The notes below the pieces were generated by a model. The model saw only the letters and a program-made list of their open reading frames with translations. It ran no database searches and had not been told where the DNA came from. A stretch of DNA of 21,372 bases from a virus: positions 1 through 21,372 of the IMG/VR virus record IMGVR_UViG_3300032093_000989, one strand, 5' to 3'. How positions within the stretch are numbered: position 1 is the stretch's first letter; every line of letters begins with the position of its first letter. Below, one piece after another: positions 49 through 21,372 of this stretch. The position numbers were made by a program, and so were the translations under genes.

Positions 49-3000
49 TTATAACCCTTTTTGCTTTCTACATTCAGTTAATTCAATTTTAAGATTTTCA
101 ATCTGAAGTTGTTGCTCTTTAATTGCTTCAACTAAAAGACCCATCATTTTTGAATAATCAAGACCCAAATGTCCATCACCTCTTTCTTTAACAACTTGCG
201 GAAGAACTTCTTGTACCTCTTGTGCGATAAGACCTGTATTTGGTGATTGTTTCGTTACATCATCTACTAAATTGTTCCATTCCCAAGTTACACCATTAAG
301 TTTTCTAACTTTATCCAATGCATTTGGTATAACTTCTACATTATCTTTGAATCTCTTATCGGATGAGAAGTATGCTGTGATATCACCAGTTGCTGTTATT
401 GAACCATTGATTGTTAAACCTGCGAATGTTGGCGATGATGATGTTGCTACTGCTTGTCCAATTGATATAGAACAGTTATCACCTGTTGTTGCACTTACCG
501 ATACGCCCGTACCTGCTGCGATACTTCTAACACCGGAGTTAGTAATTGTTGCGGTTGAACCTTCGCCTGGTGTATGTGTTATTGAAATACCACTACCTGC
601 TGATACATCAACCATATAATTACCAGTCGTATCAGTTCCTAATGCTACTGAATTTGCTGCGATAGTTGCTACACCATTTGAAGCGATAGTGATATCACCA
701 CTTACATTTGCAAAAACTTGTGCTGAACCAGTCACAACCGTTCCGATTGCTGTTCTAATTGTTTCTGCTGTCACAGTTCCACCTAATGCAGTTGATTGAC
801 CTGCTATTGTTATTGAACTATTTGTTAATTTATCATTTGCAATCGAACCTGCCAACATTGCGTTAGTTACACCACCCGTTGCTACTGAAATAGTTCTAGT
901 TGTAGATATATCACCACCTCCCGTCAAACCACTACCTGCTGATATAGAAACCGCAGTGTGGTCAACGTGTCTATTTGCTGAATACCCAGTCGTAGAGTCG
1001 TGTGAAACTTGTGAAGAACCAGAGAACAATGTTTTTACTGCACTTGCTCTACCTTCGTATGTAGTAGATAATGATGCAGTCAACGTATTCAATGATGAGG
1101 TACTCTCTTCAATTCTGCTTAATCTACTATTTTGAGCTGTGTTTGTAGTATCATTTGAACCTGTATAGGTATTTAATGAACTTAATATACCAATTACTTG
1201 AGAAGAACCCGATACAACCGTATTACTATTTAATTGTGTTTTAACATCAGTTGCGAAGTTTGTAGTTGAACCTGCGGTAATTTGCGATGAACCGGAAACT
1301 AAATTTGGAATAGTAATATCAGCGGAACCATTAAATGAAGTTCCGTTGATTGTTCTTGTGGTTTGTAAAGTAGTTGCAGTTGATGCATTGCCTGTTAGAG
1401 CTCCCGTAAATCCAGTAGAAGATACCGAAGTTAAACCTGCTAACGTCGTTGATGTTCCACCCAATGCGGTTGATGTTGAACCGATTGTTATTGTATTTGT
1501 AGTGATTGATGAACCAACAATTTGTGATGAACCCGATACAATGCCATTCGTTGCTCTAATTGGACCTGTAATATTTCCGGTCACAGTCAATGCTCCTCCG
1601 ATAGATACGGTTGTACCATCATCTGAAATTTGTGAATCAACTAAATGCTCTTTACCAGTTCCTTTTGGTAATCTATTGTTTGTTAAATATGTCTCATTAC
1701 CTAAATTATCATAAGTTTCAGGTCCTAATACAAAATGAGATGAAGTTACGTTAGTACCATTACCTCTATGAACGAAAATAAATTCATCTTGCACAGAATC
1801 ATAAAGGAATGAACCAGAACCACCTGCTGAACCCGAGTCGAATACAGCGATACCTCCGAATCTTAATACAGGATTATTTACGTTTAACTGAATAATGTTA
1901 TCACCAATATCCAAACGAGATGCGCTTATATTTTGAATTGATGAAGAACCTCCAACAATCAAATCCTGCGTAATAAATAAAGAACCTGTAATAGTTTGGT
2001 TTCCACTAAATGTGTTTGTAGAATTTGTTCTTGCATATGAACTCGTTAATGAGTTTAATGATGCGGTACTTTCTTCTAATCTACTTAATCTCGTGTTCTG
2101 CGTTGTATTAGTTGTATCGTTTGAAGCGGTATAACTATTCAAAGATACGTTACCATTACTTGCAGTAAATGTATTTAACGATGCTGTTGAAGCTTGTACT
2201 GCTGAAAATTTACTATCAACACTTGCAGTGTATGTTTGTAAAGTTGCTGATTTAGTGTTTTCGGAAGCACTAAATACGTTCAATGATGCGGTACTTTCTT
2301 CTAATCTACTTAATCTTGTGTTTTGCGTTGTATTAGTTGTATCGTTAGATGCCGTATAGGTATTTAATGATGTTAATATTCCAACTACTTGTACGGAACC
2401 TGAAACAACTGTGTTAGAATTTAATTGAGTTTTTACATCATTTGCAAAGTTAGTAGTTGAACCCGCTGTAATTTGAGATGAACCCGAAACTACACCACCA
2501 ATTAAGTTTGCTGTAATTGAACCTCCGCTAATTGTAAAATTTACATTAGTTGAGTTGGTAGAACCGGAAATAATATTTGCAGAAATACCACTCAATTGAG
2601 TAAAGTTCACTTGCGAAGAACCAGATACTAATACTTTTGCCGCACTCGCTCTACTTTCATATGTAGTTGCTAAAGATGCAGTCAATGTATTCAATGAAGA
2701 AGTTGATTCTTCTAATCTTGTTAATCTTGTATTCTGCGTAGTGTTGGTTGTATCGTTTGAACCTGTATATGTTGCTAATGTACTAAATTTAACATCAATA
2801 CTTGCAGTATATAATCTTAATGTTTCCGATTTTGTATTTTCAGATGCAGTAAATGCGTTTAAACTTGCAGTCGATTCTTCCAATCTACTCAATCTTGTAT
2901 TTTGAGTTGTATTCGTTGTATCGTTTGAACCTGTATAAGTTGCTAATGTAGTAAATTTAGTATCTACTGAAGCGGTGTATAATCTTAAAGTTTCTGATTT

Positions 3001-4404
3001 AGTATTTTCCGATGCACTGAATGCGTTTAAACTTGCAGTTGATTCTTGTAATCTACTAACTTGTGCTGCCATTGAAGCAGTTAAAGTTTGTAAAGTAGAA
3101 AACTTATTTGTATATAATGTATCTTGTACAGAAACATCAACACCATCAACCGTTCCGGTCAATGTAATATTACCTGCTACATCAATTGATTTATTAATAT
3201 CCAATGTAGATGCTGTGTTATCCCAAAGAATACTTGCATTTGCACCACTAATAAAAATACCTGCTCCATTTGCTGCTGCTGATGTTGTAGAACCTGATGC
3301 TATTTCTATTACCTTATCTTCTACCAATAAATTAGCTACATTCAATGTGACAGTATCACCTTGTACTGTTAAATTACCCAATACGGTTAAATCTGCACCA
3401 CTAACTGAAAATGCTGTTTTTAATGAAGATGTATATGTGTTAATATCAGAAATATGACCTGCTACACTTGCCGTTTGTAAATTAACGGATGAAGTACCTG
3501 CTGCTAATTGGTCAATTCTTGTAGTTTGTAATGTATTTGTTGTATTGTTGGAAGCGCTAAATGCATTTAATGATGCAGTTGATTCTTCTAATCTTGTTAA
3601 TCGTGTGTTTTGCGTTGTATTTGTAGTATCATTAGATGCTGTGTATGCATTTAATGATACGTTGCCGTTACTTGCAGTAAACGTATTTAATGATGCAGTT
3701 GAGGCTTGAACTGCTGCAAATTTTGTATCTACACTTGCTGTATATGTTTGAAGTGTTGCTGCTTTTGTATTTTCAGAAGCACTGAATGCGTTAAGTGATG
3801 CGGTTGATTCTTCTAATCTTTGAAATCTTGCAGTGTTTGCAGTATTGGTTGTAGATTGTGAAGAAGTAAATGAATTTACTGATGCAGTACCTGCTGCTAA
3901 CTGGTCAATTCTTGTAGTTTGTAATGCGTTAGTTGTATCATTAGAACCTGTGTATGTGTTCAATGATGAAAGTATACCTACTATTTGAGATGAACCACTT
4001 ACTACTCCGTTTGTTGCGTTGATTGCACCATATAAGTTTGTACCATAAATTGCTCTATATCTACTAGATGCCGAACCTAAATCAAATGCGTTATCATTAT
4101 TTGGAATAATAGATGAACTTAAATCTGCGTTTACTACTACATTATCGGAAGTATTATCACCGATTGTAATTGTACCACCCAATGTAAGATTACCATCAAT
4201 TGATGCATTACCTGTAATACTTAAAGATGTACCCGTTATAGCACCAAAATTACCTGAACTACCTGTTCCGGTTGTTGCTAATGTAACATCTCCTGTATCT
4301 AATCCAATTTGTAATGTCCCTAATGATGTATTTACATATGGTTCACCGAATGCTAACGAACCTGATTTCTGTGCGGTTGTCCCACGTCTAAATTTAAGTG
4401 CCAT
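49..4404 (-). CDS. Giant tail fibre with C-terminal peptidase S74 chaperone
   Basis: 1451 residues. Begins MALKFRRGTTAQKSGSLAFG with GEPYVNTSLGTLQIG, a phage fibre N-terminal pattern (F/L-R-R-G-T...GE). The shaft contains eight R-L/I-E/Q-E-S-T-A/S-S-L-N units plus two RIDQLAAGT variants. A module LTVLGNLTVQGDTVTLN with VEDKVIEIASG lies at ~331-405. A module LFITQDLIVGGSSS with DIGDNIIQLN lies at ~805-883. A Gly/Ser/Thr beta region follows, with many SGSSQ copies and repeated 'SAGSGLTGGGD', 'TNAMLAGSIANDKLTN' stretches typical of phage fibre knobs. Residues ~1346-1451 are a peptidase S74 chaperone: SSDKRFKDN with probable catalytic S1348 (codon 361-363) and K1353, GLIAQEVQEVLPQVV, LLVEAIKEQQ and a terminal coiled coil. 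Self-cleavage would release about 104 residues. Ends TAA at 49-51. Confidence 0.9.
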   Translation of the reverse strand: MALKFRRGTTAQKSGSLAFGEPYVNTSLGTLQIGLDTGDVTLATTGTGSSGNFGAITGTSLSITGNASIDGNLTLGGTITIGDNTSDNVVVNADLSSSIIPNNDNAFDLGSASSRYRAIYGTNLYGAINATNGVVSGSSQIVGILSSLNTYTGSNDTTNALQTTRIDQLAAGTASVNSFTSSQSTTNTANTARFQRLEESTASLNAFSASENTKAATLQTYTASVDTKFAAVQASTASLNTFTASNGNVSLNAYTASNDTTNTTQNTRLTRLEESTASLNAFSASNNTTNTLQTTRIDQLAAGTSSVNLQTASVAGHISDINTYTSSLKTAFSVSGADLTVLGNLTVQGDTVTLNVANLLVEDKVIEIASGSTTSAAANGAGIFISGANASILWDNTASTLDINKSIDVAGNITLTGTVDGVDVSVQDTLYTNKFSTLQTLTASMAAQVSRLQESTASLNAFSASENTKSETLRLYTASVDTKFTTLATYTGSNDTTNTTQNTRLSRLEESTASLNAFTASENTKSETLRLYTASIDVKFSTLATYTGSNDTTNTTQNTRLTRLEESTSSLNTLTASLATTYESRASAAKVLVSGSSQVNFTQLSGISANIISGSTNSTNVNFTISGGSITANLIGGVVSGSSQITAGSTTNFANDVKTQLNSNTVVSGSVQVVGILTSLNTYTASNDTTNTTQNTRLSRLEESTASLNVFSASENTKSATLQTYTASVDSKFSAVQASTASLNTFTASNGNVSLNSYTASNDTTNTTQNTRLSRLEESTASLNSLTSSYARTNSTNTFSGNQTITGSLFITQDLIVGGSSSIQNISASRLDIGDNIIQLNVNNPVLRFGGIAVFDSGSAGGSGSFLYDSVQDEFIFVHRGNGTNVTSSHFVLGPETYDNLGNETYLTNNRLPKGTGKEHLVDSQISDDGTTVSIGGALTVTGNITGPIRATNGIVSGSSQIVGSSITTNTITIGSTSTALGGTSTTLAGLTSVSSTGFTGALTGNASTATTLQTTRTINGTSFNGSADITIPNLVSGSSQITAGSTTNFATDVKTQLNSNTVVSGSSQVIGILSSLNTYTGSNDTTNTAQNSRLSRIEESTSSLNTLTASLSTTYEGRASAVKTLFSGSSQVSHDSTTGYSANRHVDHTAVSISAGSGLTGGGDISTTRTISVATGGVTNAMLAGSIANDKLTNSSITIAGQSTALGGTVTAETIRTAIGTVVTGSAQVFANVSGDITIASNGVATIAANSVALGTDTTGNYMVDVSAGSGISITHTPGEGSTATITNSGVRSIAAGTGVSVSATTGDNCSISIGQAVATSSSPTFAGLTINGSITATGDITAYFSSDKRFKDNVEVIPNALDKVRKLNGVTWEWNNLVDDVTKQSPNTGLIAQEVQEVLPQVVKERGDGHLGLDYSKMMGLLVEAIKEQQLQIENLKIELTECRKQKGL
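1013..1077. repeat. 65-bp perfect repeat shared with 5672-5736
   Basis: Partner of 5672-5736. Both copies are in frame with their genes and encode the same residues. Confidence 0.88.
2473..2652. repeat. 180-bp segment encoding the same 60 residues as 5101-5280
   Basis: Partner of 5101-5280, located in the 1451-residue fibre gene. Protein identical over 60 residues, DNA diverged at third positions. Confidence 0.85.
2565..2625. repeat. 61-bp perfect repeat shared with 5622-5682
   Basis: Encodes part of the S-G-S-S-Q-V-N-F-T-Q-L-S-G-I-S-A-N-I-I segment. Identity ends on both sides where the two genes diverge. Confidence 0.88.
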
Positions 4405-4443
4405 CTAGTTTACCTTTTTTTTAGTACGTTATTGTATAATATT

Positions 4444-4453
4444 TATAAATATC
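4444..4453 (-). promoter_or_regulatory. Candidate late promoter for the 1451-residue fibre gene
   Basis: GATATTTATA on the coding strand, overlapping the last base of the preceding TAG stop and 39 bases before the ATG. Here the flanks make TATAAATA appear on both strands (GATATTTATAAATATTA). An AAAAAAAAGG run 9-18 bases before the ATG may supply a weak ribosome binding site. Confidence 0.45.
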
Positions 4454-7400
4454 TATTTATTTTCCAATTCTTTTACTTTCGCTGATAATTCTTTAATCGC
4501 TTCAATTAAAAGTGGAACAATCTTATCATATTTTACTGCTTTATATCCATTTTCACGAGTTTGAACTAATTCTGGTGCAATCGCTTCGATTTCTTGTGCT
4601 ATTACACCGATATCGTGCCCTTCATATCCATGCTCTATTTTATTTTCTTCTTTCCAATCAAATTCATATCCGCCAACACTTTGTATTTTTTCTAAAGCAT
4701 TTTCTATTGGTTTGATATTATCTTTAAATCTTTTATCCGAAGATGAGAATGCTACGATATCATTTGTTGCATCAATTCTACCAGTAGTACCACTTGCAGC
4801 CATTCCAATTCCTAATGAAGCAAATTGTGGAGTTGCGGATGTATGAATATTTTGTGGTAATGATAATGTTACTGCCGCAGTTTCTACTCCAGAACCTGCT
4901 ACTGTTATTTGATTTGAAGTACCTGCAATAGTTGCGATATAATTACCAGTGGTTTGCGTTCCTAATGTAATATCTCCTGTTGCAGAACCTAATTGTACTT
5001 GTGCCGAACCTGATATTGTTCCCACAGGAAGTAATGGAGTTATTTGAGCTGCTCCACTAACTATACCATTAGAAATACCACTTAATTGAGTAAAGTTTAC
5101 CTGCGAAGAGCCAGAAACTACTCCACCAATTAAGTTCGCTGTAATTGAGCCGCCTGATATTGTAAAGTTTACATTAGTTGAGTTGGTAGAACCGGAAATT
5201 ATATTTGCACTTATTCCACTTAATTGTGTAAAGTTTACTTGTGAGGAACCAGATACTAATACTTTTGCTGCACTTGCTCTACCCTCATATGTAGTTGCTA
5301 ATGATGCAGTCAACGTATTTAACGATGCTGTACTTTCTTCCAATCTACTTAAACGATTATTTTGAGTAGTGTTGGATGTATCATTAGAACCAGTATATGT
5401 GTTTAATGATGATAGTATTCCTACAATTTGTGCGGAACCCGAAACTGTTCCTGTTGGTAATAAAGGTGTTACTTGTGATGAACCTGAAACTATTCCGTTT
5501 GATATTCCACTTAATTGTGTGAAGTTTACCTGCGAAGAACCGGAAATAACACCGCCATATAAATTAGCGGAAATGCTTCCACCATTTATTATCATATCCA
5601 CATTTGATGTATCAGATGATGCGGAAATAATATTTGCAGAAATACCACTCAATTGAGTAAAGTTCACTTGCGAAGAACCAGAGAACAATGTTTTTACTGC
5701 ACTTGCTCTACCTTCGTATGTAGTAGATAATGATGCTGTAAATACGTTAAGTGAAGATGTACTTTCTTCAAGTCTAGTTAATCTATTGTTTTGTACAGTA
5801 TTTGTTGTATCATTAGATTGGGTATAAGAATTTAATGATGCTAATATTCCAATTACTTGAGAAGAACCAGAAACTACACCTGTCGGCAATAATGATACAA
5901 ATGAACCCGATACAATCCCCATTCCATCTGTCAATACTTTAGCTTCAGCTCCTAAAGGACCTGCTATCCATCTATCATTTGTAGTATCCCACAATAAAGA
6001 ACCTGAAGTTGTAGTTGCTGCCGTTGCATCTCTAACTACCAAACCTCCATTAGTTGTACCGGTTCCATTAAGTTGAATAATGTTATCACCTATATTAACA
6101 GTAGTGGAATTTATAGTAGTTGTTGTTCCTGCTACAGTCAAATTACCATTAAGAGTAACATCTGAACCTGCGATTGTTATTGCGGTTTTAAGAGATGCTG
6201 TATAGGAATTTATTGATGCTGTACTTTCTTCTAATCTTGTTAATCTATTACTTTGTGCAGTATTGATTGTATTATTAGATGCAGTATAAGCATTTATATC
6301 TGTAATATGTTCGTTTACGCTTGCACTAAATGTAGAATTGTTAATCCAAATACTTCCGCTCTTCATTAAAAAATCACCATATGATGAATTTGTAGTTGAG
6401 TCTACAACATCATGTGCCTCACCTAATTCTGAACCATTATCTATTCTAACATATATTGAACCATTATTTTGTTGGTCTCTTAATACCTCACCCAATCTAA
6501 CACCATGTAGTGGTGCTACTGGCGATGTAGTTGTGAATGTGCCATTTGCTCCCAAATATATTAATTGGCCTGCTGTCATTCCTGTGGTATTCACTCCCAA
6601 TAAAATACCTTCGGTTACTACATATCCAAAACTATCATTTGGGATATTTTGAGTTGTAATACCTAATGTGTTTGCGGAATTTGCATCATTTTCATATGAT
6701 GCGGTAGAAATTAAAGGATTATCTCCAGTAGCACCAACTATTCTTACAACTTTACCTTTATCAATTTGTGCTCCACTTACATTTTTTACTAAAATGTCAA
6801 CTTGAGTTGCTCTTTCTGCTAATGATGCGGTAGGTACTATTTGTGAAGAACTATATGCTTCCAAAACATCTAACCTAGCATCAAATGATGAACTATGTGT
6901 TGAATAAGATTGTGTAAATAGATTAAGTGATGCAGTTGATTCTTTTAATCTTGCAATTGTAGAATCTACTGATGCTGTATACGTTTGTAATGTATTAAAT
7001 TTACTATTAATTGAACCTGTCCAACCATTAATATCTAATATATGTTCATTAGTACTCTTTGTAAAATCATTAATATTAGTAAGAGATGCTGATAAACCTG
7101 CTGGTGTTAAAATACTTGTTAAATATTCAACTTGGTCTAATCTTGCATCTACTGAAGTTGAGAATGGTTGAAATACTGAACCTGTCCATGTATTAAATGA
7201 TGCTGTCTGTAAATTTAAAGATGCTGTTACATTTTGTAATGTGGTATCTTTTTGTTTTTGAGAACCAGTCCAATCATTTATATCTACAATATGTCCTTTT
7301 ACTGATGCGGACCATATATTAATATCTGCTACATGTCCATTAATACTTGCGCTAAATGTATTAAGTGAAGCCGTACTTTCTTCAATTCTACTTAATCTTA

Positions 7401-9498
7401 TATTTTGGGTATTATTAGTAGTATCGTTGGATTGTGTATATAAGTTTAATGATGCAGTTGCTTCTCTCAATCTTGCAATAGTAGAATCTATACTTGCGGT
7501 ATAAGTTTGAAGTGTACTGAATTTTGTATCAACTGAAGCGGTGTATAATCTTAAAGTTTCAGATTTAGTATTTTCAGAAGCACTGAAAGAATTAAGTGAT
7601 GAAGTTGATTCTTCTAATCTACTTAATCTAGTTAATGCGGAAGCACTAAAAGTATTAAGAGATGCTGTTGATTCTTGCAATCTACTATCAACTGCTAACA
7701 TTGATGCAGTTAAAGTTTGAAGTGTGGAATCTTTTTGCAATTGAGAGGCAGTAAATGCGTTAATCGATGCTGTATAAACATTTATTGATGCTGTACTTTC
7801 TTCAATTCTGCTTAATCTTGTTAATGTAGAAGAACTAAACGTATTTAATGATGCTGTCGAAGCTTGAATTGAATTAAATTTGGTTTCAAAAGAGCCAGTT
7901 TTTACATTGATATCTGTAATATGACCATTTACACTTGCTGTATGATTATTCATTGAGCTTGTGTATGATGCTATTATTACATCTTTATTTTCTTGCGATG
8001 CACTAAATACATTTAATGATTCTAAAATACCAACTACTTGTGCAGAACTTGTTACAACAGAATCACCCCCTGCTAAAAGAATTTTTGTTTCGGCGTTTAT
8101 TGTACCTGCTTTCCAATAATCATTAGTAGAATCCCATATCAAAGAACCTGTAGCAGTATTTGGTGCTGTTGGGTCTTTAACAACTATACCGCCATTTGCT
8201 GCACCATTACCATTCAATTCTATTATATTATCACCTAATTGAACGGTTGTTGAATTAACTGCAGTTGTTGTTCCTTGAACTGTTAGGTTTCCTGCAATAG
8301 TTACATTAGTACCACTTAAACTAATGGCTGTTTTTAATGATGATGTGTATGATTCTATATTATTTAATCTACTTACATCACTACCACTTTGAGTTTCTAA
8401 TGCAGATAATCTTTGGTTTGCAGATGATGTGTACTGATGTATAGATTGAGTAAATGTATTTAGTGATGCAGTTGCTTCTCTCAATCTTGTAATAGTAGAA
8501 TCTAAAGATGATGTATAAGTTTGTAATGTACTAAATTTGGTATCAACACTTGCTGTATATAATCTTAAAGTTTCTGCTTTAGTGTTTTCCGAAGCACTGA
8601 AAGAATTAAGAGATGCAGTTGATTCTTCTAATCTAGTTAATCTATTGTTTTGATTAGTATTTGTTGTATCATTACTTGCGGTGTAACTATTCAAAGAAGT
8701 ATTACCATTACTTGCTGTGAATGTATTTAATGAAGCAGTAGATGCTTGAACTTCTGCAAATTTTGCATCAACACTTGCTGTATAAGTTTGTAATGTAGAA
8801 TCTTTAATTAATTGAGAAGCGCTAAAACTATTTAATGATGATGTACTTTCTTCAATTCTTTCGAATCTTGAAGTATTATTTGTATTAACAGATGCAGTCC
8901 ATGCGTTAATATCCGTAATATGCCCATTTACACTAGCGGTATATGTTTGTAGTGTTAAAAATTTAGTTTCAAAAGAGCCTGTTTTAGTATTAATATCTGT
9001 AATGTGTCCATTTACACTTGCTGTATGTCCATTAACTGATGCTGTACCAGCTGCTAGTTGATTAACTCTTGTACCCAATAAACCTATATCGATACCCCCT
9101 ATACTTCCTACAATATTAGATGCAGATATACTATTAGCATATATGTTTCTCCATTCATTTCCAATTGTACCAATATCGTATGTATTTGGTGAACCTGGTT
9201 TTAAATCGGATGTAAATAAACCCAATGCATTAATATTATCTGATGTGTTATTTCCTAAAAATAAATTACCAGATATGGAAACGTTTCCTAAAAAGAATGC
9301 ATTATTTACGGATAAATCTCCTGATGTTGATATTGCATTATTTAAATAAAAAGCACCATCGTTTACCGAATTGAGCTTTGCTATAACTACCTCACTCGAA
9401 CCATTACCAACAACCAATGTTGTTTTTGAAGTGTTAAATTCTAATTGGCCTGCTGTTGAAACCGCTGATGTTGTACTTTTTAAAATAAATGTTGCCAT
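4453..9498 (-). CDS. Giant tail fibre with C-terminal peptidase S74 chaperone
   Basis: 1681 residues, the largest protein in the window. N-terminal module MATFILKSTTSAVSTAGQLE, then a beta segment with the NNTSDNINALG and YDIGTIGNEWRNIYA patterns seen at fibre heads. The shaft holds at least 12 R-x-x-E/K-S/A-T-A/S-S-L/I-N units with TASVDTKFS spacers. Two 'LTVxGTTT...LxDNIIxLNG...SL-WD-TND-W' modules sit at ~396-479 and ~1106-1190. A globular module at ~895-1035 (LVKNVSGAQIDKGKVVRIVG, then FGYVVTEGILLGVNTTG, VRLGEVL and NGSIYVRIDNG) is of a type I recognise from phage structural proteins. After SGSSQ-rich repeats comes the S74 intramolecular chaperone, residues ~1586-1681: SDKRFKDN with probable catalytic S1587 and K1592, GVIAQEIE, and a terminal coiled coil. 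Family knowledge: S74 domains trimerise, fold the shaft, then cut themselves off before the Ser. This would release ~95 residues. Confidence 0.9.
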   Translation of the reverse strand: MATFILKSTTSAVSTAGQLEFNTSKTTLVVGNGSSEVVIAKLNSVNDGAFYLNNAISTSGDLSVNNAFFLGNVSISGNLFLGNNTSDNINALGLFTSDLKPGSPNTYDIGTIGNEWRNIYANSISASNIVGSIGGIDIGLLGTRVNQLAAGTASVNGHTASVNGHITDINTKTGSFETKFLTLQTYTASVNGHITDINAWTASVNTNNTSRFERIEESTSSLNSFSASQLIKDSTLQTYTASVDAKFAEVQASTASLNTFTASNGNTSLNSYTASNDTTNTNQNNRLTRLEESTASLNSFSASENTKAETLRLYTASVDTKFSTLQTYTSSLDSTITRLREATASLNTFTQSIHQYTSSANQRLSALETQSGSDVSRLNNIESYTSSLKTAISLSGTNVTIAGNLTVQGTTTAVNSTTVQLGDNIIELNGNGAANGGIVVKDPTAPNTATGSLIWDSTNDYWKAGTINAETKILLAGGDSVVTSSAQVVGILESLNVFSASQENKDVIIASYTSSMNNHTASVNGHITDINVKTGSFETKFNSIQASTASLNTFSSSTLTRLSRIEESTASINVYTASINAFTASQLQKDSTLQTLTASMLAVDSRLQESTASLNTFSASALTRLSRLEESTSSLNSFSASENTKSETLRLYTASVDTKFSTLQTYTASIDSTIARLREATASLNLYTQSNDTTNNTQNIRLSRIEESTASLNTFSASINGHVADINIWSASVKGHIVDINDWTGSQKQKDTTLQNVTASLNLQTASFNTWTGSVFQPFSTSVDARLDQVEYLTSILTPAGLSASLTNINDFTKSTNEHILDINGWTGSINSKFNTLQTYTASVDSTIARLKESTASLNLFTQSYSTHSSSFDARLDVLEAYSSSQIVPTASLAERATQVDILVKNVSGAQIDKGKVVRIVGATGDNPLISTASYENDANSANTLGITTQNIPNDSFGYVVTEGILLGVNTTGMTAGQLIYLGANGTFTTTSPVAPLHGVRLGEVLRDQQNNGSIYVRIDNGSELGEAHDVVDSTTNSSYGDFLMKSGSIWINNSTFSASVNEHITDINAYTASNNTINTAQSNRLTRLEESTASINSYTASLKTAITIAGSDVTLNGNLTVAGTTTTINSTTVNIGDNIIQLNGTGTTNGGLVVRDATAATTTSGSLLWDTTNDRWIAGPLGAEAKVLTDGMGIVSGSFVSLLPTGVVSGSSQVIGILASLNSYTQSNDTTNTVQNNRLTRLEESTSSLNVFTASLSTTYEGRASAVKTLFSGSSQVNFTQLSGISANIISASSDTSNVDMIINGGSISANLYGGVISGSSQVNFTQLSGISNGIVSGSSQVTPLLPTGTVSGSAQIVGILSSLNTYTGSNDTSNTTQNNRLSRLEESTASLNTLTASLATTYEGRASAAKVLVSGSSQVNFTQLSGISANIISGSTNSTNVNFTISGGSITANLIGGVVSGSSQVNFTQLSGISNGIVSGAAQITPLLPVGTISGSAQVQLGSATGDITLGTQTTGNYIATIAGTSNQITVAGSGVETAAVTLSLPQNIHTSATPQFASLGIGMAASGTTGRIDATNDIVAFSSSDKRFKDNIKPIENALEKIQSVGGYEFDWKEENKIEHGYEGHDIGVIAQEIEAIAPELVQTRENGYKAVKYDKIVPLLIEAIKELSAKVKELENK
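5101..5280. repeat. 180-bp segment encoding the same 60 residues as 2473-2652
   Basis: The 60 residues from RASAAKVLVSGSSQ to GGVVSGSSQ are identical in the 1681- and 1451-residue fibres, while the DNA differs at synonymous sites (for example CAG versus CAA for the last Gln). This is older duplication or exchange with conserved protein sequence. Confidence 0.85.
5622..5682. repeat. 61-bp perfect repeat shared with 2565-2625
   Basis: Read base by base, 5622-5682 in the 1681-residue gene equals 2565-2625 in the 1451-residue gene. Its right end overlaps the start of a different perfect repeat (5672-5736). Confidence 0.88.
5672..5736. repeat. 65-bp perfect repeat shared with 1013-1077
   Basis: Identical to 1013-1077 in the 1451-residue gene. 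Encodes the RASAVKTLFSGSSQ region. Shares 11 bases (5672-5682) with the neighbouring 61-bp repeat. Confidence 0.88.
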
Positions 9499-10026: not shown

Positions 10027-11700
10027 TTACAATAAATCGTAAGATGTATTGATTGTGTATGTAGTCGAATCTACCGATGCTGCCACTATTGCATTACCAC
10101 CACTAATAGATACATTGAAAGTTAAACCAGATGTATCTCCAACATCAACAGTAGTAAATTCATTAAATACAGCAGTACCACCATTCCAATATCCAATCAC
10201 ATATCCTGCTCTACCATTTGCTCCTTTAGTTGCTGCGTATCTTACAAATATAGATGTGTAAGAACCTGTAGATACACTTATAATTGTATTAGAACCAACT
10301 GAATTTGCAGATGCTTGTAATCCTCTTAATGTTGCCGGTCCTAAAACAACTTGATTTGCAGATACTGAACCAGAGAATGAACCACTTACGGTTTTATTAG
10401 AAAGTGTTTGAGTTGCAGTTGTTGTTACAACAGGAACTTCAGAACCACTTGCTCCGGCTATCCATTGGTCAGTTGAACCATCCCATAATAATGAACCAGA
10501 TGATAATGTTCCAGTTGCATCTTTTGTTAAAATACCTGCTCTAACTGCAGAACCACCATAGTTTAATTCTAATATATTATCTGCTATATTAACGGTAGTT
10601 GAATTTACCGTCGTAGTTGTACCTGCTACAGTCAAATCACCATTAATAGTTACATTTGAACCATTAAGTGAAAGTGCAGTTTTTAAAGATGCTGTATATG
10701 AATTTATAGATGCTGTTGCTTCTTCAATTCTACTTAATCTTGTATTTTGTGTGTTATTTGTAGTATCATTAGATGCGGTATATGCATTTAATGATGATGT
10801 TGATTCTCTTAATCTAGCTAAAGTCGAATCTACCGATGCAGTATAAGTTTGTAAAGTAGAAAACTTCGTATCTACTGATGCTGTATAAGTTTGAAGTGTT
10901 GCTGATTTTGTATTTTCAGAAGCACTGAATGCATTTAATGATGCTGTACTTTCTTCAATTCTACTCAATCTAGTTAAAGTAGAAGCACTGAATGTATTTA
11001 ATGATGCAGTTGATTCTTGTAATCTACTATTTACTGCTAACATTGAAGCGGTCAAAGTTTGTAAAGTAGAAAACTTTGTATCTACTGAAGCGGTGTAAGT
11101 TTGTAAAGTAGAAAACTTCGTATCTACTGAAGCGGTGTAAGTTTGTAAAGTAGAATCTTTAGTTAATTGCGATGCGGTAAATGCATTAATCGATGCAGTT
11201 GATTCTTGTAATCTACTATCAACTGCCAACATTGAAGCGGTCAAAGTTTGTAAAGTACTAAATTTAGTTTCGAATGAAGCGGATTTAGTATTAATATCTG
11301 TAATATGACCTAAAACAGATGCGCTAAACGTATTTAAAGATGCAGTTGATGCTTGAACTGCTCCGAACTTTGTATCTACTGATGCGGTATAAGTTTGAAG
11401 TGTTGCTGATTTTGTATTTTCAGAAGCACTGAATGCATTTAATGATGCTGTACTTTCTTCAATTCTGTTTAATCTAACAGTTGCGGAAGATGTAAATGAG
11501 TTTACAGATGCAGTTGCTGCTGCCAATTGGTCAATTCTGGTTGCTACTGAGCCCCCGCCACCAACGGATGATTCCAATGAATCTAATCTACTATCAACGG
11601 ATTGAGAGAATGTTGATGCATTACCCAAACCATTAATCGTAGAACCCGATATATCTCCTACTACTAATAGGCCATTTTTGACTTTAAATTCGTTTGCCAT
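10027..11700 (-). CDS. Coiled-coil-rich tail fibre protein with shared 82-residue tip domain
   Basis: 557 residues. Begins MANEFKVKNGLLVVGDISGS, an N-terminal module shared with the 144-residue gene downstream. A FSQSVDSRLDSLE hinge with GGGGS leads into a long repeat shaft (~55-340). The shaft has six R-x-x-E-S/A-T-A/S-S-L/I-N units spaced by TLQTYTASVDTKFS units, which have 14-residue (two-heptad) periodicity and probably form a trimeric coiled coil. Part of it is an exact 42-bp tandem repeat at DNA level. At ~345-423 is the module LTVAGTTTTVNSTTVNIADN, ending in a SLLWDGSTDQW strand, also present twice in the 1681-residue fibre. The C-terminal 82 residues (476-557) align gaplessly with those of the 530-residue protein (G-S-Y-T, T-K-G, R-A-G, W-N-G, D-x-G-D-T, T-F). 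No S74 chaperone. Role as a host-recognition fibre is inferred. Confidence 0.83.
   Translation of the reverse strand: MANEFKVKNGLLVVGDISGSTINGLGNASTFSQSVDSRLDSLESSVGGGGSVATRIDQLAAATASVNSFTSSATVRLNRIEESTASLNAFSASENTKSATLQTYTASVDTKFGAVQASTASLNTFSASVLGHITDINTKSASFETKFSTLQTLTASMLAVDSRLQESTASINAFTASQLTKDSTLQTYTASVDTKFSTLQTYTASVDTKFSTLQTLTASMLAVNSRLQESTASLNTFSASTLTRLSRIEESTASLNAFSASENTKSATLQTYTASVDTKFSTLQTYTASVDSTLARLRESTSSLNAYTASNDTTNNTQNTRLSRIEEATASINSYTASLKTALSLNGSNVTINGDLTVAGTTTTVNSTTVNIADNILELNYGGSAVRAGILTKDATGTLSSGSLLWDGSTDQWIAGASGSEVPVVTTTATQTLSNKTVSGSFSGSVSANQVVLGPATLRGLQASANSVGSNTIISVSTGSYTSIFVRYAATKGANGRAGYVIGYWNGGTAVFNEFTTVDVGDTSGLTFNVSISGGNAIVAASVDSTTYTINTSYDLL
10883..10962. repeat. 80-bp perfect direct repeat, copy 1
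   Basis: Identical, by direct reading, to 11387-11466 in the same gene (spacing 504 bp, a multiple of three, so the reading frame is kept). Encodes part of the coiled-coil shaft ending in the R-I-E-E-S-T-A-S-L-N unit. Confidence 0.88.
11057..11155. repeat. 42-bp tandem repeat in the fibre shaft
   Basis: Two 42-bp copies (11057-11098 and 11099-11140) differ at one base (T versus C at the 21st position). A partial third copy runs to 11155. Each encodes a 14-residue unit of the YTASVDTKFSTLQT type, exactly four helical turns (two heptads). Confidence 0.9.
11387..11466. repeat. 80-bp perfect direct repeat, copy 2
   Basis: Partner of 10883-10962. Homologous recombination between the two would delete or duplicate 504 bp (168 residues) of shaft without a frameshift. 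Confidence 0.88.
11581..11610. repeat. 30-bp hinge-encoding repeat (also at 14357, 14927, 15419)
   Basis: A 30-bp sequence beginning ATCTAATCTACTATCAACGG recurs at 14357-14386 and 15419-15448 (identical) and at 14927-14956 (one mismatch). It encodes the FSQSVDSRLD hinge that precedes the Gly-rich linkers in the 557- and 774-residue fibres. Confidence 0.9.
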
Positions 11701-16775: not shown

Positions 16776-17097
16776 ATTGTTCTATATCTCCGGTTACTTC
16801 TATATAATCATCATCATCTAAATTAAATCCAAAACGATTTTTTATAAATTTAAAAATAAGGCCATCTTGTCCCTGTTCTACTATATAATCTCTAGCTGAA
16901 ATATATTGTGTATTTATAATAACTCTTATTCTATCTTGATTTATTCTATTTTCCACTTCTCTCAAAACATCCACAAATTTCCAACCTTTTGCTTCCCAAA
17001 TCCAATATGTAGGATGGTTTAAATCCTTTGGAGTTAATTCAGGATCACCAAATTTTCTACTTATCTTTTGGGTTATATCTAAAAGTGTTCTTTTCAT
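16768..17097 (-). CDS. Small structural-operon protein, unknown function
   Basis: 109 residues; family not recognised. The N-terminal half is a charged, probably helical segment (LLDITQKISRKFGDPELTPK, then a Trp-rich TYWIWEAKGWKFVDVL). The last ~50 residues look like a beta domain, ending GFNLDDDDYIEVTGDI, and align without large gaps to the C-terminus of the preceding gp15-like protein (GFTVDSGDEISITGKF). It is locked into the operon: its ATG overlaps the upstream stop as TAATG, and its last eight bases overlap the next gene (16768-16775). Position suggests a minor neck, tail or tail-attachment component. No signal peptide, membrane segment or catalytic motif is visible. Confidence 0.8.
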   Translation of the reverse strand: MKRTLLDITQKISRKFGDPELTPKDLNHPTYWIWEAKGWKFVDVLREVENRINQDRIRVIINTQYISARDYIVEQGQDGLIFKFIKNRFGFNLDDDDYIEVTGDIEQYA

Positions 17098-18218
17098 TAT
17101 ACATCTATAAATTTACCTGTTATAGAAATTTCATCACCACTATCAACTGTAAATCCTAAATTTCCAGAATTAAAATTTATAGTCAATGAATTAGATGACA
17201 TTGCAACTAAAAAATGAGTTGTAAAATAATATCTAGTACCATTTATATAAACTTTAATATCATATGAATCCGAACCTATTGTAATTCCACTTGTAACTAC
17301 TGATGTTAGTGATGGCGGTGTTTTAATGGGTTTAATTCCTGTAAATGTGATTGTATTATTTGCTACAGGATTTTGTACTTTACTACCATTGATAGATAAA
17401 AAATCAATAAGGTCTTTATTATCGTAGTATGGAGATGGTGTGGTAAGGAATCCTTCCAATCTACCACTACCACTCGTAACATCCACTTCGGTCGCAACCA
17501 CAATTCTTTTTGTAGACATTGACTTTCTAGTAGTTAATTCTCCATCAAATTTTTCTGGTAATAAGTAAGCCTTTACATTCAATGAAAATTCTACTCTATT
17601 AATTCTTTCCGTTCCCTCACCAACTTCATTTACAACATTGAATTCATTTACAGATGTACGAAATTTAAATTTTTCTTTATCTCCCCAATATGATGATGCG
17701 AAATTTAATTGTTCAATTACTTCATTTAATTGTTCGGTATAGGAAGTCCAACACATACAATCGTAATTAACCTCCACATAATCCGGCATTGCAATTCGGA
17801 AAATTTCATACTTTGGTTTTACACTACCACCCAATGCAGTAAAACGGTCATACCTATTATCTTTTGACCATTTAGTAATTGCAGGATATGAAATGTGTCG
17901 ATTTGGCATTGACATAGTTTCATCTTTTGCAATTGATGTTCTACGAATCATTAGTATTGGTAATTGTATTTTACCTTTACCATCTCTGAAAACTCCTTGC
18001 CTTCTTGCACCATTCCATCTTTCTGAATTGCCATATACAACAGGGATTTTTACTGCAACACCTTTTCCATCTTTCAATGTCGGTAAAACGGTATCTTCCA
18101 AATATGACATCATAGCATAATCTATATCAAATAGCGTTACACTTTTTTTAAGGTCATTTTTTTCAGATTTTATTTCTTTACCCCTATTAAGGTCGGGTCT
18201 TAATGGATTTACTGACAT
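17097..18218 (-). CDS. T4 gp15-like tail terminator / tail completion protein with C-terminal extension
   Basis: 373 residues. Expected to cap the tail tube and sheath and join it to the neck. Residues 54-68 (VAVKIPVVYGNSERW) match T4 gp15 FIRVPITYASKEHF. PILMIRRTSI (87-96) matches its LPRINLHLVD strand. Residues 135-222 (KPKYEIFRIAMPDYVEVNYD, a helix EQLNEVIEQL, then RTSVNEFNVVNEVGEGTERI and an RVEFSLNVKAYLLP strand) follow the gp15 order KMIYEL..., IVEQILPYF, DEAIDGDNLSRRRIEWSLTFEVNGWMYPP. T4 gp15 is 272 residues. Here about 120 extra residues follow a Gly/Ser linker near residue 250 and form a beta-rich tail. The last ~50 residues resemble the ends of the next two genes. Its TAA stop overlaps the next ATG by one base (TAATG), suggesting translational coupling. 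Confidence 0.75.
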   Translation of the reverse strand: MSVNPLRPDLNRGKEIKSEKNDLKKSVTLFDIDYAMMSYLEDTVLPTLKDGKGVAVKIPVVYGNSERWNGARRQGVFRDGKGKIQLPILMIRRTSIAKDETMSMPNRHISYPAITKWSKDNRYDRFTALGGSVKPKYEIFRIAMPDYVEVNYDCMCWTSYTEQLNEVIEQLNFASSYWGDKEKFKFRTSVNEFNVVNEVGEGTERINRVEFSLNVKAYLLPEKFDGELTTRKSMSTKRIVVATEVDVTSGSGRLEGFLTTPSPYYDNKDLIDFLSINGSKVQNPVANNTITFTGIKPIKTPPSLTSVVTSGITIGSDSYDIKVYINGTRYYFTTHFLVAMSSNSLTINFNSGNLGFTVDSGDEISITGKFIDV

Positions 18219-18224
18219 TTATTA

Positions 18225-18695
18225 TTAGTTTATTCTTTCTTCAATATTAAGATTGGATTTAGATACCATAAATGTGGTACATATGATACTCCAATTTCTT
18301 CTATCCTCTTCCGTTCCTGGTAATCCACCAACAAATTGTATTTCATTTGTATTATCTATTTCATAATAAGAATCATTAAAATAAATAACATCACCAATTT
18401 CAGGATATGCGTTTCTTTCTCTACAATGTTCTCTATCAAAGCGAAACTCTAAATTTTGATTTGTATCTGGACCAAATCCTTCATATTGTATTGATTCAGG
18501 CTCTTTATTAATTAAAACATACAACTCAACACCTCTGTGCCAAGTTTTATTCATTGCCTCACCGTAAATATTAACTTTTGTTTCATTTATATTAATTTTA
18601 TATAAAACGCAAGTTTCTTCAATTACCTTTTCAACTAATTCTCTGGCAACATTTCTTAAAAATTGTATATCTCTACCTACTAAAAACTTTGGCAT
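18225..18695 (-). CDS. T4 gp14-like neck protein (short form)
   Basis: 156 residues. Probably the second neck-ring component, between the gp13-like protein and the tail terminator. The best visible match to T4 gp14 is residues 99-118, EIGDVIYFNDSYYEIDNTNE, which parallels gp14 EGDLIYFP...LFEINWVEP. A preceding helix (residues 8-31) and the stretch around HRGVELYVLI (54-63) could correspond to the gp14 VAESIQMRGVECYYV region. T4 gp14 is 256 residues; the C-terminal part is missing here. AGGA stands five bases before the ATG, one of the few plausibly spaced ribosome binding sites in the window. It starts one base after the gp13-like stop and ends six bases before the gp15-like start, so the three are almost certainly co-expressed. 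Similarity is weaker than for the neighbours; another head-closure family is possible. Confidence 0.58.
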   Translation of the reverse strand: MPKFLVGRDIQFLRNVARELVEKVIEETCVLYKININETKVNIYGEAMNKTWHRGVELYVLINKEPESIQYEGFGPDTNQNLEFRFDREHCRERNAYPEIGDVIYFNDSYYEIDNTNEIQFVGGLPGTEEDRRNWSIICTTFMVSKSNLNIEERIN

Positions 18696-18696
18696 A

Positions 18697-19905
18697 TTAT
18701 CCTACATATAATTTTAAAGGAACTTTTCTTAACATTTCTTGCTGATGGTCTGCTTCGTGTGCTTTATTTTCCATCACTTTGATTCTACTTAATTCCTCAA
18801 GGTTTTCTCTTAATTGTGTTATGAGCGCATCCTTTTCAACTTGTGCCTCTGCTCTCAATGCTGCACCATCCAATGATACTTCTCCATCTGGTATTGGAAC
18901 TGAATTATATTTTTCTCTAATTGCTCCTAAAAGTTCTTTAGAAAGTGCAAGTGTATATTTTCTAATCCACTGCTTACCAACATCATTTATATTTGAATAT
19001 TGAATAAAATCATATGGAATATCAGAATAATCTGAAAGCGAATCAGGCTGAATAGTTTGTGAATCATGCTCAAATTCATCTCTACTCATATAGTCAAAGT
19101 ATATTTTCGCTGGTGACCCTTGTGTTGGTACAGGAAATATTTCGATTTTATTATCTACAATATTGAATGTATGATGTGATTTTCTAATATGGTCATTAAA
19201 TTCTATATGTTGCATTCTTAATACATCCTCATATAAAGGCATCATTAAGAATTGTGCAGATGGAGAATAATTACCAAATCCTAATTCAGAAATTAAATTT
19301 AATGTGCCCTGAGCTCCTACTGAATATGGGTCAAAGAAACGAGTGATAGCCGGAATTGCTTCATGATATACTCTTACAACATCAATTGTAGAACTTCCGC
19401 TGAATATATTTGCAAAATTTTTGTTTTGTTCTAAATCGATTGAACTTGACATTAAATTATATCTTTGTACGGATTCAGTAAGTTCTATATATGCCTTTCT
19501 TATTTCCGTAGCCCCACCAACTCCTGCCAATGTTCCATATTGTTGGGACATACGAACTGCGGTTGGGAGGAATGAACCTTCTACAAGTGTTTGAGAATAA
19601 TTTGATACTTTACCTTTTGGTTGTCCTTTAAGAATATCAAGGTTATTTCGAAGATTAAATTGATTTACTTGAGATGAATATTCAGAAACTGCTTCTTCAA
19701 AACATGCCCAAATTTGCTCATTATCCAATTCAATATTAACAATTGGATATCCCAATCTTTTTGCAACCCACGTTGCAGTTTTAGGTGCATCGCTTCTAAA
19801 ATCAGCATCGGAATCATAAAGTCCAAAAGGAGTCGCTTGTGATAAAGCTACTGATGCGGAAAATTGTGATGCTGATGAACCTGACCAATAATTGTTATAT
19901 GACAT
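18697..19905 (-). CDS. T4 gp13-like neck / head-completion protein
   Basis: 402 residues. Likely a connector at the head-tail joint that seals the filled head. Residues ~50-78 (RLGYPIVNIELDNEQIWACF and following) match the N-terminal block of gp13-type neck proteins, where a 'lG-P-v-v-e-l-t-d-e-Q' strand-helix is typical. Residues 311-375 (KQWIRKYTLALSKELLGAIR, then PIPDGEVSLDGAAL and a charged helix) match the T4 gp13 pattern of a W-x-K/R-Y helix, then P-x-G-x-V-x-x-D-G and a C-terminal helix. T4 gp13 is 309 residues, so this protein is longer, with a Ser-rich N-terminal extension and a longer C-terminal helix. First gene after the capsid terminator; no Shine-Dalgarno is visible. Stop and next start are separated by one base. 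Assignment rests on motif memory and the adjacent gp14/gp15-like genes. Confidence 0.72.
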   Translation of the reverse strand: MSYNNYWSGSSASQFSASVALSQATPFGLYDSDADFRSDAPKTATWVAKRLGYPIVNIELDNEQIWACFEEAVSEYSSQVNQFNLRNNLDILKGQPKGKVSNYSQTLVEGSFLPTAVRMSQQYGTLAGVGGATEIRKAYIELTESVQRYNLMSSSIDLEQNKNFANIFSGSSTIDVVRVYHEAIPAITRFFDPYSVGAQGTLNLISELGFGNYSPSAQFLMMPLYEDVLRMQHIEFNDHIRKSHHTFNIVDNKIEIFPVPTQGSPAKIYFDYMSRDEFEHDSQTIQPDSLSDYSDIPYDFIQYSNINDVGKQWIRKYTLALSKELLGAIREKYNSVPIPDGEVSLDGAALRAEAQVEKDALITQLRENLEELSRIKVMENKAHEADHQQEMLRKVPLKLYVG

Positions 19906-19932
19906 TTACTAAAATTTATAGAGTTATACTAC

Positions 19933-19942
19933 TATAAATATA
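19933..19942 (-). promoter_or_regulatory. Candidate late promoter for the neck operon
   Basis: The coding strand reads TATATTTATA, with 27 bases between it and the ATG of the gp13-like gene. It lies directly after the capsid terminator, as expected for a new transcription start. The same 10-mer, or one differing at one or two end positions, recurs upstream of five other structural genes. Five bases downstream is ATAACT, also found at a spacing of five or six bases in the copies at 11725 and 15820. No conserved -35 element is visible, as in T4-type late promoters. Function is inferred. Confidence 0.5.
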
Positions 19943-19947
19943 GAAAT

Positions 19948-19980
19948 AAAAAAAGAGGAGTGATTTCTCACCCCTCTTTT
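19948..19980 (-). terminator. Intrinsic terminator after the capsid gene
   Basis: On the minus strand a 13-bp stem (arms 19968-19980 and 19951-19963, one G-U wobble) closes a GAAA tetraloop at 19964-19967. It is followed by seven U residues (19954 down to 19948, partly in the stem foot). It sits between the capsid stop codon and the gp13-like gene, and the candidate promoter motif lies just beyond it. The A-rich foot on the other side would also allow it to work on plus-strand transcripts, but no plus-strand gene is present. Confidence 0.85.
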
Positions 19981-20014
19981 ATATTTTAAGTTTAAAACTT
20001 AACTAATTACTCAA

Positions 20015-21372
20015 TTAGAGAGCTTCTAAACCATCAACGATAATCTTACCGTAAAACTCTGGTCTTACGATTTTCTTAGCGTATCTAGTCATAACACCTC
20101 TTCTCGGAGTGAAGTTAGTTGGGTCATAAACTAATGGAGTCATAATCAATGGTACATATGGTGCGTAAACTGCTCCTGTTTCGAAGAAGTTAGAACCTTT
20201 GAAACCTAATAAGATTACGTTCTCTGTCATATATGGGTTTTTGTAAACATCATATCTGTTAGAGATAGAACCGATGTTAGTTACACCTGCTGCGAACTGT
20301 AAAGCATCTTTACCTGGGTTTGCAGAGAATCCGTTCATTGATTCAAGAATTGTAGCTACGTTTGGAGATACAACGATAAAGTTTGCACCACCTCTCATAG
20401 TTAATTGGTGAATCTTGTTAGAGATTTTCTGTAATTTGATACCCAAAGTTTGATACCAAGTGTTCTTTGTGTAAGCACCTGCTGCTACTGCTGTAGAATC
20501 AGCTGCGAAACCTGTACCAGTCCAGTCATATCCAACTCTTGCAGACCAGTATTCAGTTGAGAATGCGTTTTGCTGTAACATCTCAAGGATTTCTAAATCA
20601 ATCTCTAAAGAGATGTATTCAGATAACATTTGAGTTAATTCAGCTTCAGCATCTACTGAATGGTATGCATTCAAGTCTTGTGCTAATTCTGGAGTCCAAA
20701 TTGCTTTCAACTTACGAGTTTTAGCAACGATTGGTTCAGATTTCAATTCAAGTTCAACTTCTGGAATTGGAAGGTCAGAACCTTTATCTTCGAAGTCACC
20801 TCTATTGTAATCAACTGGTTGCTTAAAGTATGCTAATTCAGCACCTACTGTTGAAGAACCTGACCAAGAAGCGTTTGTAATTTCTGCTACAAACACTACG
20901 TTTGAACCATTCTTCACAGTATATTGTGGATAAAGAACGTAGCCAGAACCTGATTGTTGTAAATCAAATGCTCTAACACCATTCCAATCTGCATCAGATG
21001 GTAATGCTACAGTTGCTTTTCTTAACTTACCTGCTGCGAAAGATGCAGATACAGTTGCGTTTGATAAATCGAATGAAATATCTGCTAAAGATGCCGATGC
21101 TACTGATGCAGCAACAACAGATTTAGTATCATTGATAGTGTATCCGAATCTACCTGCGCCAAATAAGCCACCTTCAGCAGCTTGAGTAGAACCTAACTTA
21201 TTAGTGTTAGCATCTAAACTATCTTTACCGAAAGTACCTAAAGCACCGAACATAGAAGAACCAGAAGCTGGTCTGTTGATATCCTTACCTGCTGTTGAAC
21301 CATATTTGAAGTCCATGTAGAAGATAAGACCTGATGGTAAGTTCATTGGTTGAACTGAAACGAATTCTTTAG
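20015..21372 (-). CDS. Major capsid protein, T4 gp23-like (5' end outside window)
   Basis: Forms the hexameric shell lattice of the phage head. 451 residues are visible. The reading frame is open to the right edge, and the codons before the first in-window Met (21344-21346) spell KEFVSVQP, so that Met is internal. VQPMN-PSG matches the T4 gp23 block GVQPMNSPTGQVF. Further matches to T4 gp23 are KTRKLKAIWTPELAQDLNAY with DAEAELTQML after it, RGGANFIVVSPNVATILES, and a C-terminal YAPYVPL followed by DPTNFTPRRG-MTRY. The region between the N-terminal match and KTRKLK is poorly conserved and contains an insert-like Ala/Ser-rich stretch. Family knowledge: T4 gp23 is 521 residues and is trimmed at its N-terminus by the prohead protease; that region is not in the window. 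The stop is TAA, followed 34 bases later by a strong terminator. The identification is secure; the true length is unknown. Confidence 0.93.
   Translation of the reverse strand, partial: KEFVSVQPMNLPSGLIFYMDFKYGSTAGKDINRPASGSSMFGALGTFGKDSLDANTNKLGSTQAAEGGLFGAGRFGYTINDTKSVVAASVASASLADISFDLSNATVSASFAAGKLRKATVALPSDADWNGVRAFDLQQSGSGYVLYPQYTVKNGSNVVFVAEITNASWSGSSTVGAELAYFKQPVDYNRGDFEDKGSDLPIPEVELELKSEPIVAKTRKLKAIWTPELAQDLNAYHSVDAEAELTQMLSEYISLEIDLEILEMLQQNAFSTEYWSARVGYDWTGTGFAADSTAVAAGAYTKNTWYQTLGIKLQKISNKIHQLTMRGGANFIVVSPNVATILESMNGFSANPGKDALQFAAGVTNIGSISNRYDVYKNPYMTENVILLGFKGSNFFETGAVYAPYVPLIMTPLVYDPTNFTPRRGVMTRYAKKIVRPEFYGKIIVDGLEAL

Follow-up and report, generated by a model that had tools for sequence, protein, structure and literature searches.

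The window analysed here is the full 21,372-base IMG/VR record IMGVR_UViG_3300032093_000989, a metagenomic virus fragment. Its minus strand carries, in order, a gene for a T4-type major head protein, a match to a head-tail adaptor and then a series of fibre-like genes, the two largest of which are adjacent:

20015-21346, minus strand: T4-type major head protein (PHROG 138).
18697-19905, minus strand: head-tail adaptor match (PHROG).
4453-9498, minus strand: 1681-residue fibre protein with a C-terminal Peptidase_S74 intramolecular chaperone (Pfam PF13884, E 1.5e-17; PHROG tail fibre / baseplate wedge initiator families); carries c1, the mosaic junction, and c2.
49-4404, minus strand: 1451-residue fibre protein with a C-terminal Peptidase_S74 domain (Pfam PF13884, E 5.9e-16; PHROG long tail fibre distal subunit families); carries c3 and c4.

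The Peptidase_S74 domains of the two fibre proteins score 58.9 and 64.1 bits against a curated cut-off of 22. The head protein is about 51-52% identical to its nearest cultured relatives, Microcystis phage Mel-JY01 and Flavobacterium phage immuto. All 868 cultured-phage matches to the last 499 fibre residues are below 60% identity, and many of those listed are named long tail fibre or baseplate wedge initiator. The junction module is predicted by AlphaFold2 with a mean pLDDT of 57.6 and without secondary structure.

Four paralogous copies, each centred on an SGSSQ pentapeptide (its joint), are found in these two genes, with joints at 5668-5682 (c1) and 5239-5253 (c2) in the 1681-residue gene and at 2611-2625 (c3) and 1009-1023 (c4) in the 1451-residue gene. 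The features that surround them are the following, contigs of other records being denoted by L and a number:

5622-5682, minus strand: tract A in c1, 61 bp equal to 2565-2625 (SGSSQVNFTQLSGISANIIS); exact repeat, its 20-codon run reached in 0 of 400,000 shuffles.
5672-5736, minus strand: tract B in c1, 65 bp equal to 1013-1077 (ASLSTTYEGRASAVKTLFSGSS); exact repeat, its 21-codon run reached in 115 of 400,000 shuffles.
5668-5682, minus strand: SGSSQ joint of c1, meeting place of tracts A and B (common 11 bp, 5672-5682), from sequence comparison.
2565-2625, minus strand: copy of tract A in c3 (exact repeat).
1013-1077, minus strand: copy of tract B in c4 (exact repeat).
5193-5307, minus strand: paralogue c2, which has the same 20-residue tract-A peptide but synonymous changes in 9 of 20 codons and serves as an internal control.
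1024-1212, minus strand: 63-codon joint-to-joint module with almost all of c4's copy of tract B; L053/L054 lack it as a single exact unit.
2665-2727, minus strand: 63 bp (21 codons) missing in L089, from comparison with that contig.

Both identities (61/61 bp for tract A, 65/65 bp for tract B) are exact and maximal at these coordinates, as had been reported in a preliminary description of this DNA, and both matching sites lie, as it also said, in one other gene (the 1451-residue gene, 49-4404), about 1.5 kb apart. Read in the coding direction, c1 equals c4 on the 5' side of the SGSSQ block, over the 18 codons before the joint and on into it. On the 3' side c1 is the same as c3 over 20 codons counted from the joint, and the homologous flanks are heavily diverged. 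Upstream, outside the tracts, 104 of 138 bases are identical between c1 and c4 and 79 of 138 between c1 and c3; downstream of tract A, c1 and c3 are 60% identical. Many codons outside the tracts differ, synonymously or not, in proteins that are still homologous. The locus shows one hallmark of intragenomic gene conversion between paralogues, an exact tract between diverged homologous flanks, except that tract B is bounded on its joint side by a different module instead, since c4's next module is not homologous to that of c1.

The two tracts overlap in the sequence GAAGAACCAGA, which the preliminary description had correctly given and which is common to c1, c3 and c4. It had been taken to encode SGSSQ, but these 11 bp stop short of the full pentapeptide, ending after SGS and two bases of the following Ser codon, and one base differs in the fourth paralogue (joint 5239-5253). 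Synonymous divergence of the same protein segments elsewhere was confirmed by c2 at 5253, which differs from tract A at 9 of 20 codons, and by the paralogous modules 2473-2772 and 5101-5400, where 95 of 100 residues and 58 of 100 codons are identical. The latter pair are old copies under strong protein-level selection.

Among the exact repeats of the window, one of 80 bp in the 557-residue gene is the longest, tracts B and A come second and third, and the next has 36 bp. Chance was assessed by permuting synonymous states among amino-acid-identical codons within ungapped homologous segments of six fibre genes (94 pairs). Runs of 20 and 21 identical codons arose in 0 and 115 of 400,000 shuffles of the segments that hold tracts A and B (99 and 71 codons), which after correction for the 94 pairs corresponds to less than 0.0003 for tract A and to about 0.03, only modestly significant, for tract B. 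No other pair among the 94 had, after correction, an exact run too long for its synonymous divergence. For the 80-bp repeat (10883-10962 and 11387-11466) the codon-shuffle p value was 0.016, not significant after correction.

The junction is most probably the product of recent homologous copying of a short patch, or gene conversion, between paralogous modules of the two adjacent fibre genes. A recent crossover or conversion between fibre genes was what the preliminary description proposed; the two exact tracts, their diverged flanks and the rejection of DNA-level constraint (below) uphold the recent exchange, but the protein arrangement it produced is not a new one. The order TTYE(G/S)RAS..K..-SGSSQ-VNFTQLSGISANIIS is common to c1, c2 and c3, with a close form in L084 and L085, so that the event would have overwritten an arrangement already in place, as conversion does, and a patch of conversion accounts for it better than a new fusion would.

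The most likely course of events is homologous strand exchange in which c4 and then c3 were copied into c1, the template being switched at SGSSQ. During replication or the repair of a double-strand break, the c1 strand would have been copied on c4 up to the end of the c4 module at the SGSSQ block; it would then have re-paired through the 11 bp common to c1, c3 and c4, and after some 50-60 bp of c3 had been copied it would have returned to c1. The machinery was probably a phage strand exchange system of the RecA/UvsX type, which relatives make plausible: a RecA-family gene is present in nine of the ten related records searched, the tenth being a 47-kb fragment. Repeated in-frame exchange of this kind at SGSSQ blocks would reassort, add and remove modules, and would in this way remodel the length and content of the fibres.

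Identity alone carries no direction, and c1 may instead have been the donor in two independent conversions that replaced the tract-A stretch of c3 and the tract-B stretch of c4; tract B would end at the c4 joint in either case, because beyond it the modules of c4 and c1 are not homologous. We regard this as unlikely, because two events are needed where copying from c4 and c3 into c1 needs one, and because tract A would have no reason to start within the same 11 bp, c1 and c3 being homologous further upstream, whereas with c1 as recipient the switch coincides with the end of the homology to c4. Tract B of c4 is as close to the L009 orthologue (53/65) as are the flanks of c4 (114/138 and 36/45), but the c1 flank agrees with that orthologue at 104/138, too near these values to separate donor from recipient.

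The join might also be an assembly chimera of a repeat-rich contig, as a metagenomic virus record with repeats of 61-80 bp in its fibre genes could suggest. This is improbable, since an assembler cannot bridge an overlap of only 11 bp, so that reads across the join should exist, and since the independent contig L089, which does not reach c1, reproduces the copies in c3 and c4 without a single base changed. Even less credible is that the tracts were held identical, without recent copying, by selection on the DNA itself, as a regulatory or RNA element, a recombination site or an overlapping gene. Peptide conservation around SGSSQ is strong, and the SGSSQ codons are more uniform than codons elsewhere in most contigs; yet the 21 different versions of this module found in relatives (L089, the same phage, being set aside) are only 63-83% DNA-identical to tract A, the one with the identical 20-residue peptide reaches 80%, and c2, in the same gene, 83%, so that constraint does not explain the identity of the tracts. 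Exact 38-mers of either tract occurred in no IMG/VR contig but L089, in a search that may omit the window's own genome. DNA-level constraint was rejected on these two grounds, the divergence of the relatives' copies and the confinement of the exact 38-mers to the window and L089. Finally, diversity-generating retroelements and site-specific inversion are known to vary phage receptor-binding genes, but remodelling by either is extremely improbable here, as a reverse transcriptase (PF00078) was matched in none of 11 records including the window (records that may be fragments), the tracts are identical and not adenine-mutated copies, and the window holds no inverted repeats of 30 bp or more, a threshold that leaves shorter sites outside.

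Alternative junctions, for which the preliminary description proposed to look in related phages, were found, SGSSQ joints there having other neighbours. Behind the same upstream module, TTYEGRAS..K.., SGSSQ leads into no fewer than four types of module, including VSHDSTTGYSANRH (c4 and L009), VSYTGLSGIPAGIV (L084) and IDIT.TTNYTTF (L015 and L085), and the joint is therefore a place where modules change partner. Nor is the arrangement invariant among relatives, as vertical inheritance of both tracts had been supposed to require. L053/L054, a relative at about 85%, lacks the 63-codon module that reaches from joint 1198-1212 to joint 1009-1023 as a single block of 189 bp, the 60 codons on either side being identical at 166 of 180 and 156 of 180 bases, and L009 retains this c4 module (1024-1212) with a different module before it.

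Contig L089 is identical to the window without mismatch over 1-2664 and 2727-4574, but lacks 63 bp (21 codons, in frame) of the 1451-residue gene. This gap shows one base of microhomology and lies about 40 bp from c3's copy of tract A, and its edges are not at SGSSQ, so that more than one process alters these fibre genes. As the other copies keep the missing stretch, it is probably L089 that has changed. No near-identical relative that spans c1 was found, L089 ending at window position 4574 and L102 spanning 17057-21197 only.

Scans with the fibre gene, the junction peptide and the head protein gave loci with 274 fibre-like ORFs, reduced to 145 when near-identical ones were removed, and SGSSQ is the commonest pentapeptide in this non-redundant set, with 532 occurrences. 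It is an evolutionary seam joining fibre modules in this phage group, and the modules on its two sides combine almost independently. For the 527 occurrences with full flanks (64 contigs), and with pairs identical on both sides dropped before counting, the probability of a similar downstream sequence given a similar upstream one is 0.124 at the joint, compared with 0.075 for random pairs. The inside-module controls are 0.81 (19 residues upstream) and, for the reverse probability, 0.70 (19 residues downstream), and linkage at the joint was below both in 300 of 300 contig bootstraps. Of 60 frequent pentapeptides, SGSSQ has the lowest linkage between preceding and following sequence, with the exception of ISGSS, a pentapeptide overlapping it, and one upstream family may be combined with as many as 18 different downstream families.

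Gain and loss of modules follow the same boundaries. Pairwise comparison of 162 unique ORFs (233 before near-identical ones were removed) from 80 contigs gave 2282 indel events, collapsed to 1610, which are not independent across related contigs. Both edges of an in-frame length difference lay at a joint in 255 of these non-independent events against 69.7 expected, and at a strict SGSSQ in 173 against 40.8 expected, the highest ratio of the 60 frequent pentapeptides; where both flanks were at least 80% identical, and with the same dependence among events, the count was 56 of 277 against 10.3 expected. The units in these fibres are modules of roughly 15-290 codons edged by the common pentapeptide. 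A chain of such modules, represented by one composite query of 80 residues, was matched in phage records only by Flavobacterium phage immuto (4 of 50,697 records); 131 stretches in prokaryote genomes fitted a pattern and none was confirmed.

The codons of the joint exceed the background in uniformity, with a Gly homozygosity of 0.78 against 0.49 (higher than background in 42 of 45 contigs) and AGT rare among the Ser codons of positions 3 and 4. This pattern points to a shared ancestry of the joint DNA; it is no proof of homogenisation, as codon uniformity exceeds background in other repeated motifs too.

In the preliminary description the short shared sequence encoding SGSSQ was the switch point. 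The SGSSQ codon block at the join, its position as a module seam and the very low linkage across it agree with this, but tract ends are not generally enriched there. A conversion scan of the 145 ORFs, in which 130 of 1749 segments were tested (runs below 12 codons or with fewer than five synonymous differences being excluded), detected 39 conversion-like tracts at p<=0.001 in 15 contigs, with 2 of 68 internal ends at SGSSQ against 0.8 expected; the count was 2 of 37 without the collagen-like contig L099, and 1 of 10 for homology-limited ends. Most of these tracts sit in coiled-coil or collagen-like repeats without joints. The idea of a general conversion hotspot at SGSSQ was rejected, most other conversion-like tracts ending elsewhere. 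Three of the tracts come from segments containing a joint, and each of them abuts one, which is suggestive only; two are tracts A and B, and the third is in L053, where a 40-codon module (QVYSGVSGD...) occurs at residues 1361 and 1490 of the ORF from 5595, DNA-identical from the Q of SGSSQ and preceded by two different upstream modules. In L099, many conversion-like tracts lie in the ORF from 16969, whose very long product is collagen-like and built of GSSGTSG/GSTGSSG repeats.

A further, speculative reading, which we would not favour at present, is that SGSSQ is a dedicated in-frame recombination joint, a 15-bp codon block kept at module boundaries by a large group of uncultured T4-like phages, so that any two boundaries, in one gene or in different ones, could serve RecA-type exchange and template switching and an intact new fibre would result. 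If this were so, the codon pattern would be maintained partly by exchange and not by protein function alone.

The nearest known kind of system is the modular shuffling of T-even gp38 adhesins between conserved motifs. The T-even gp38 adhesin and distal tail-fibre locus reportedly has glycine-rich motifs alternating with hypervariable segments (work attributed to Tetart 1998 and Trojet 2011). Passages of PMC6630733 describe modular reshuffling through conserved motifs that gives chimeric adhesins (see also PMC12529663 and PMC3797505). In both systems short conserved motifs part variable segments and recombination occurs at the motifs, as the low linkage at SGSSQ and the joint-to-joint module differences indicate here. 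The present fibres differ in that the motif is SGSSQ, with many copies in each of the very long S74 proteins, and in that exchange also takes place between two neighbouring genes of one genome; the likeness is one of working only, the window is a fragment, and we do not file it as a gp38 member. With the long tail fibre and baseplate wedge initiator proteins of T4-like cyanophages and pelagiphages they share the S74 domain and the PHROG distal-fibre families, whereas they are set apart from the S74 fibres of cultured phages by the low identity of all 868 matches and by a module chain that the composite query matched, among phage records, only in those of immuto. Tail-fibre mosaicism is well described in T4 relatives and pelagimyophages, as in PMC2993671 and PMC7029224, and there too a fibre region lies beside structural genes; the variation described in the passages concerned is on the scale of genes or islands, in contrast to the modules with a common pentapeptide edge found here. 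No paper in the open-access literature, outside which most subscription journals fall, was found to mention SGSSQ together with phage.

Fibres determine which bacteria a phage infects. With a repeated joint, nearly free combination of neighbours and a fresh copying event, fibre mosaicism, long known and poorly resolved, becomes a parsable module grammar, which allows fibres to be split into modules at SGSSQ and these to be catalogued and compared from phage to phage and host to host, and the SGSSQ seam gives a testable prediction of where the next recombinants form.

Past the left end of the window, L089 (4435-8894) continues with ORFs of 343, 580 and 539 residues, the last of which we take to resemble a tail sheath protein.
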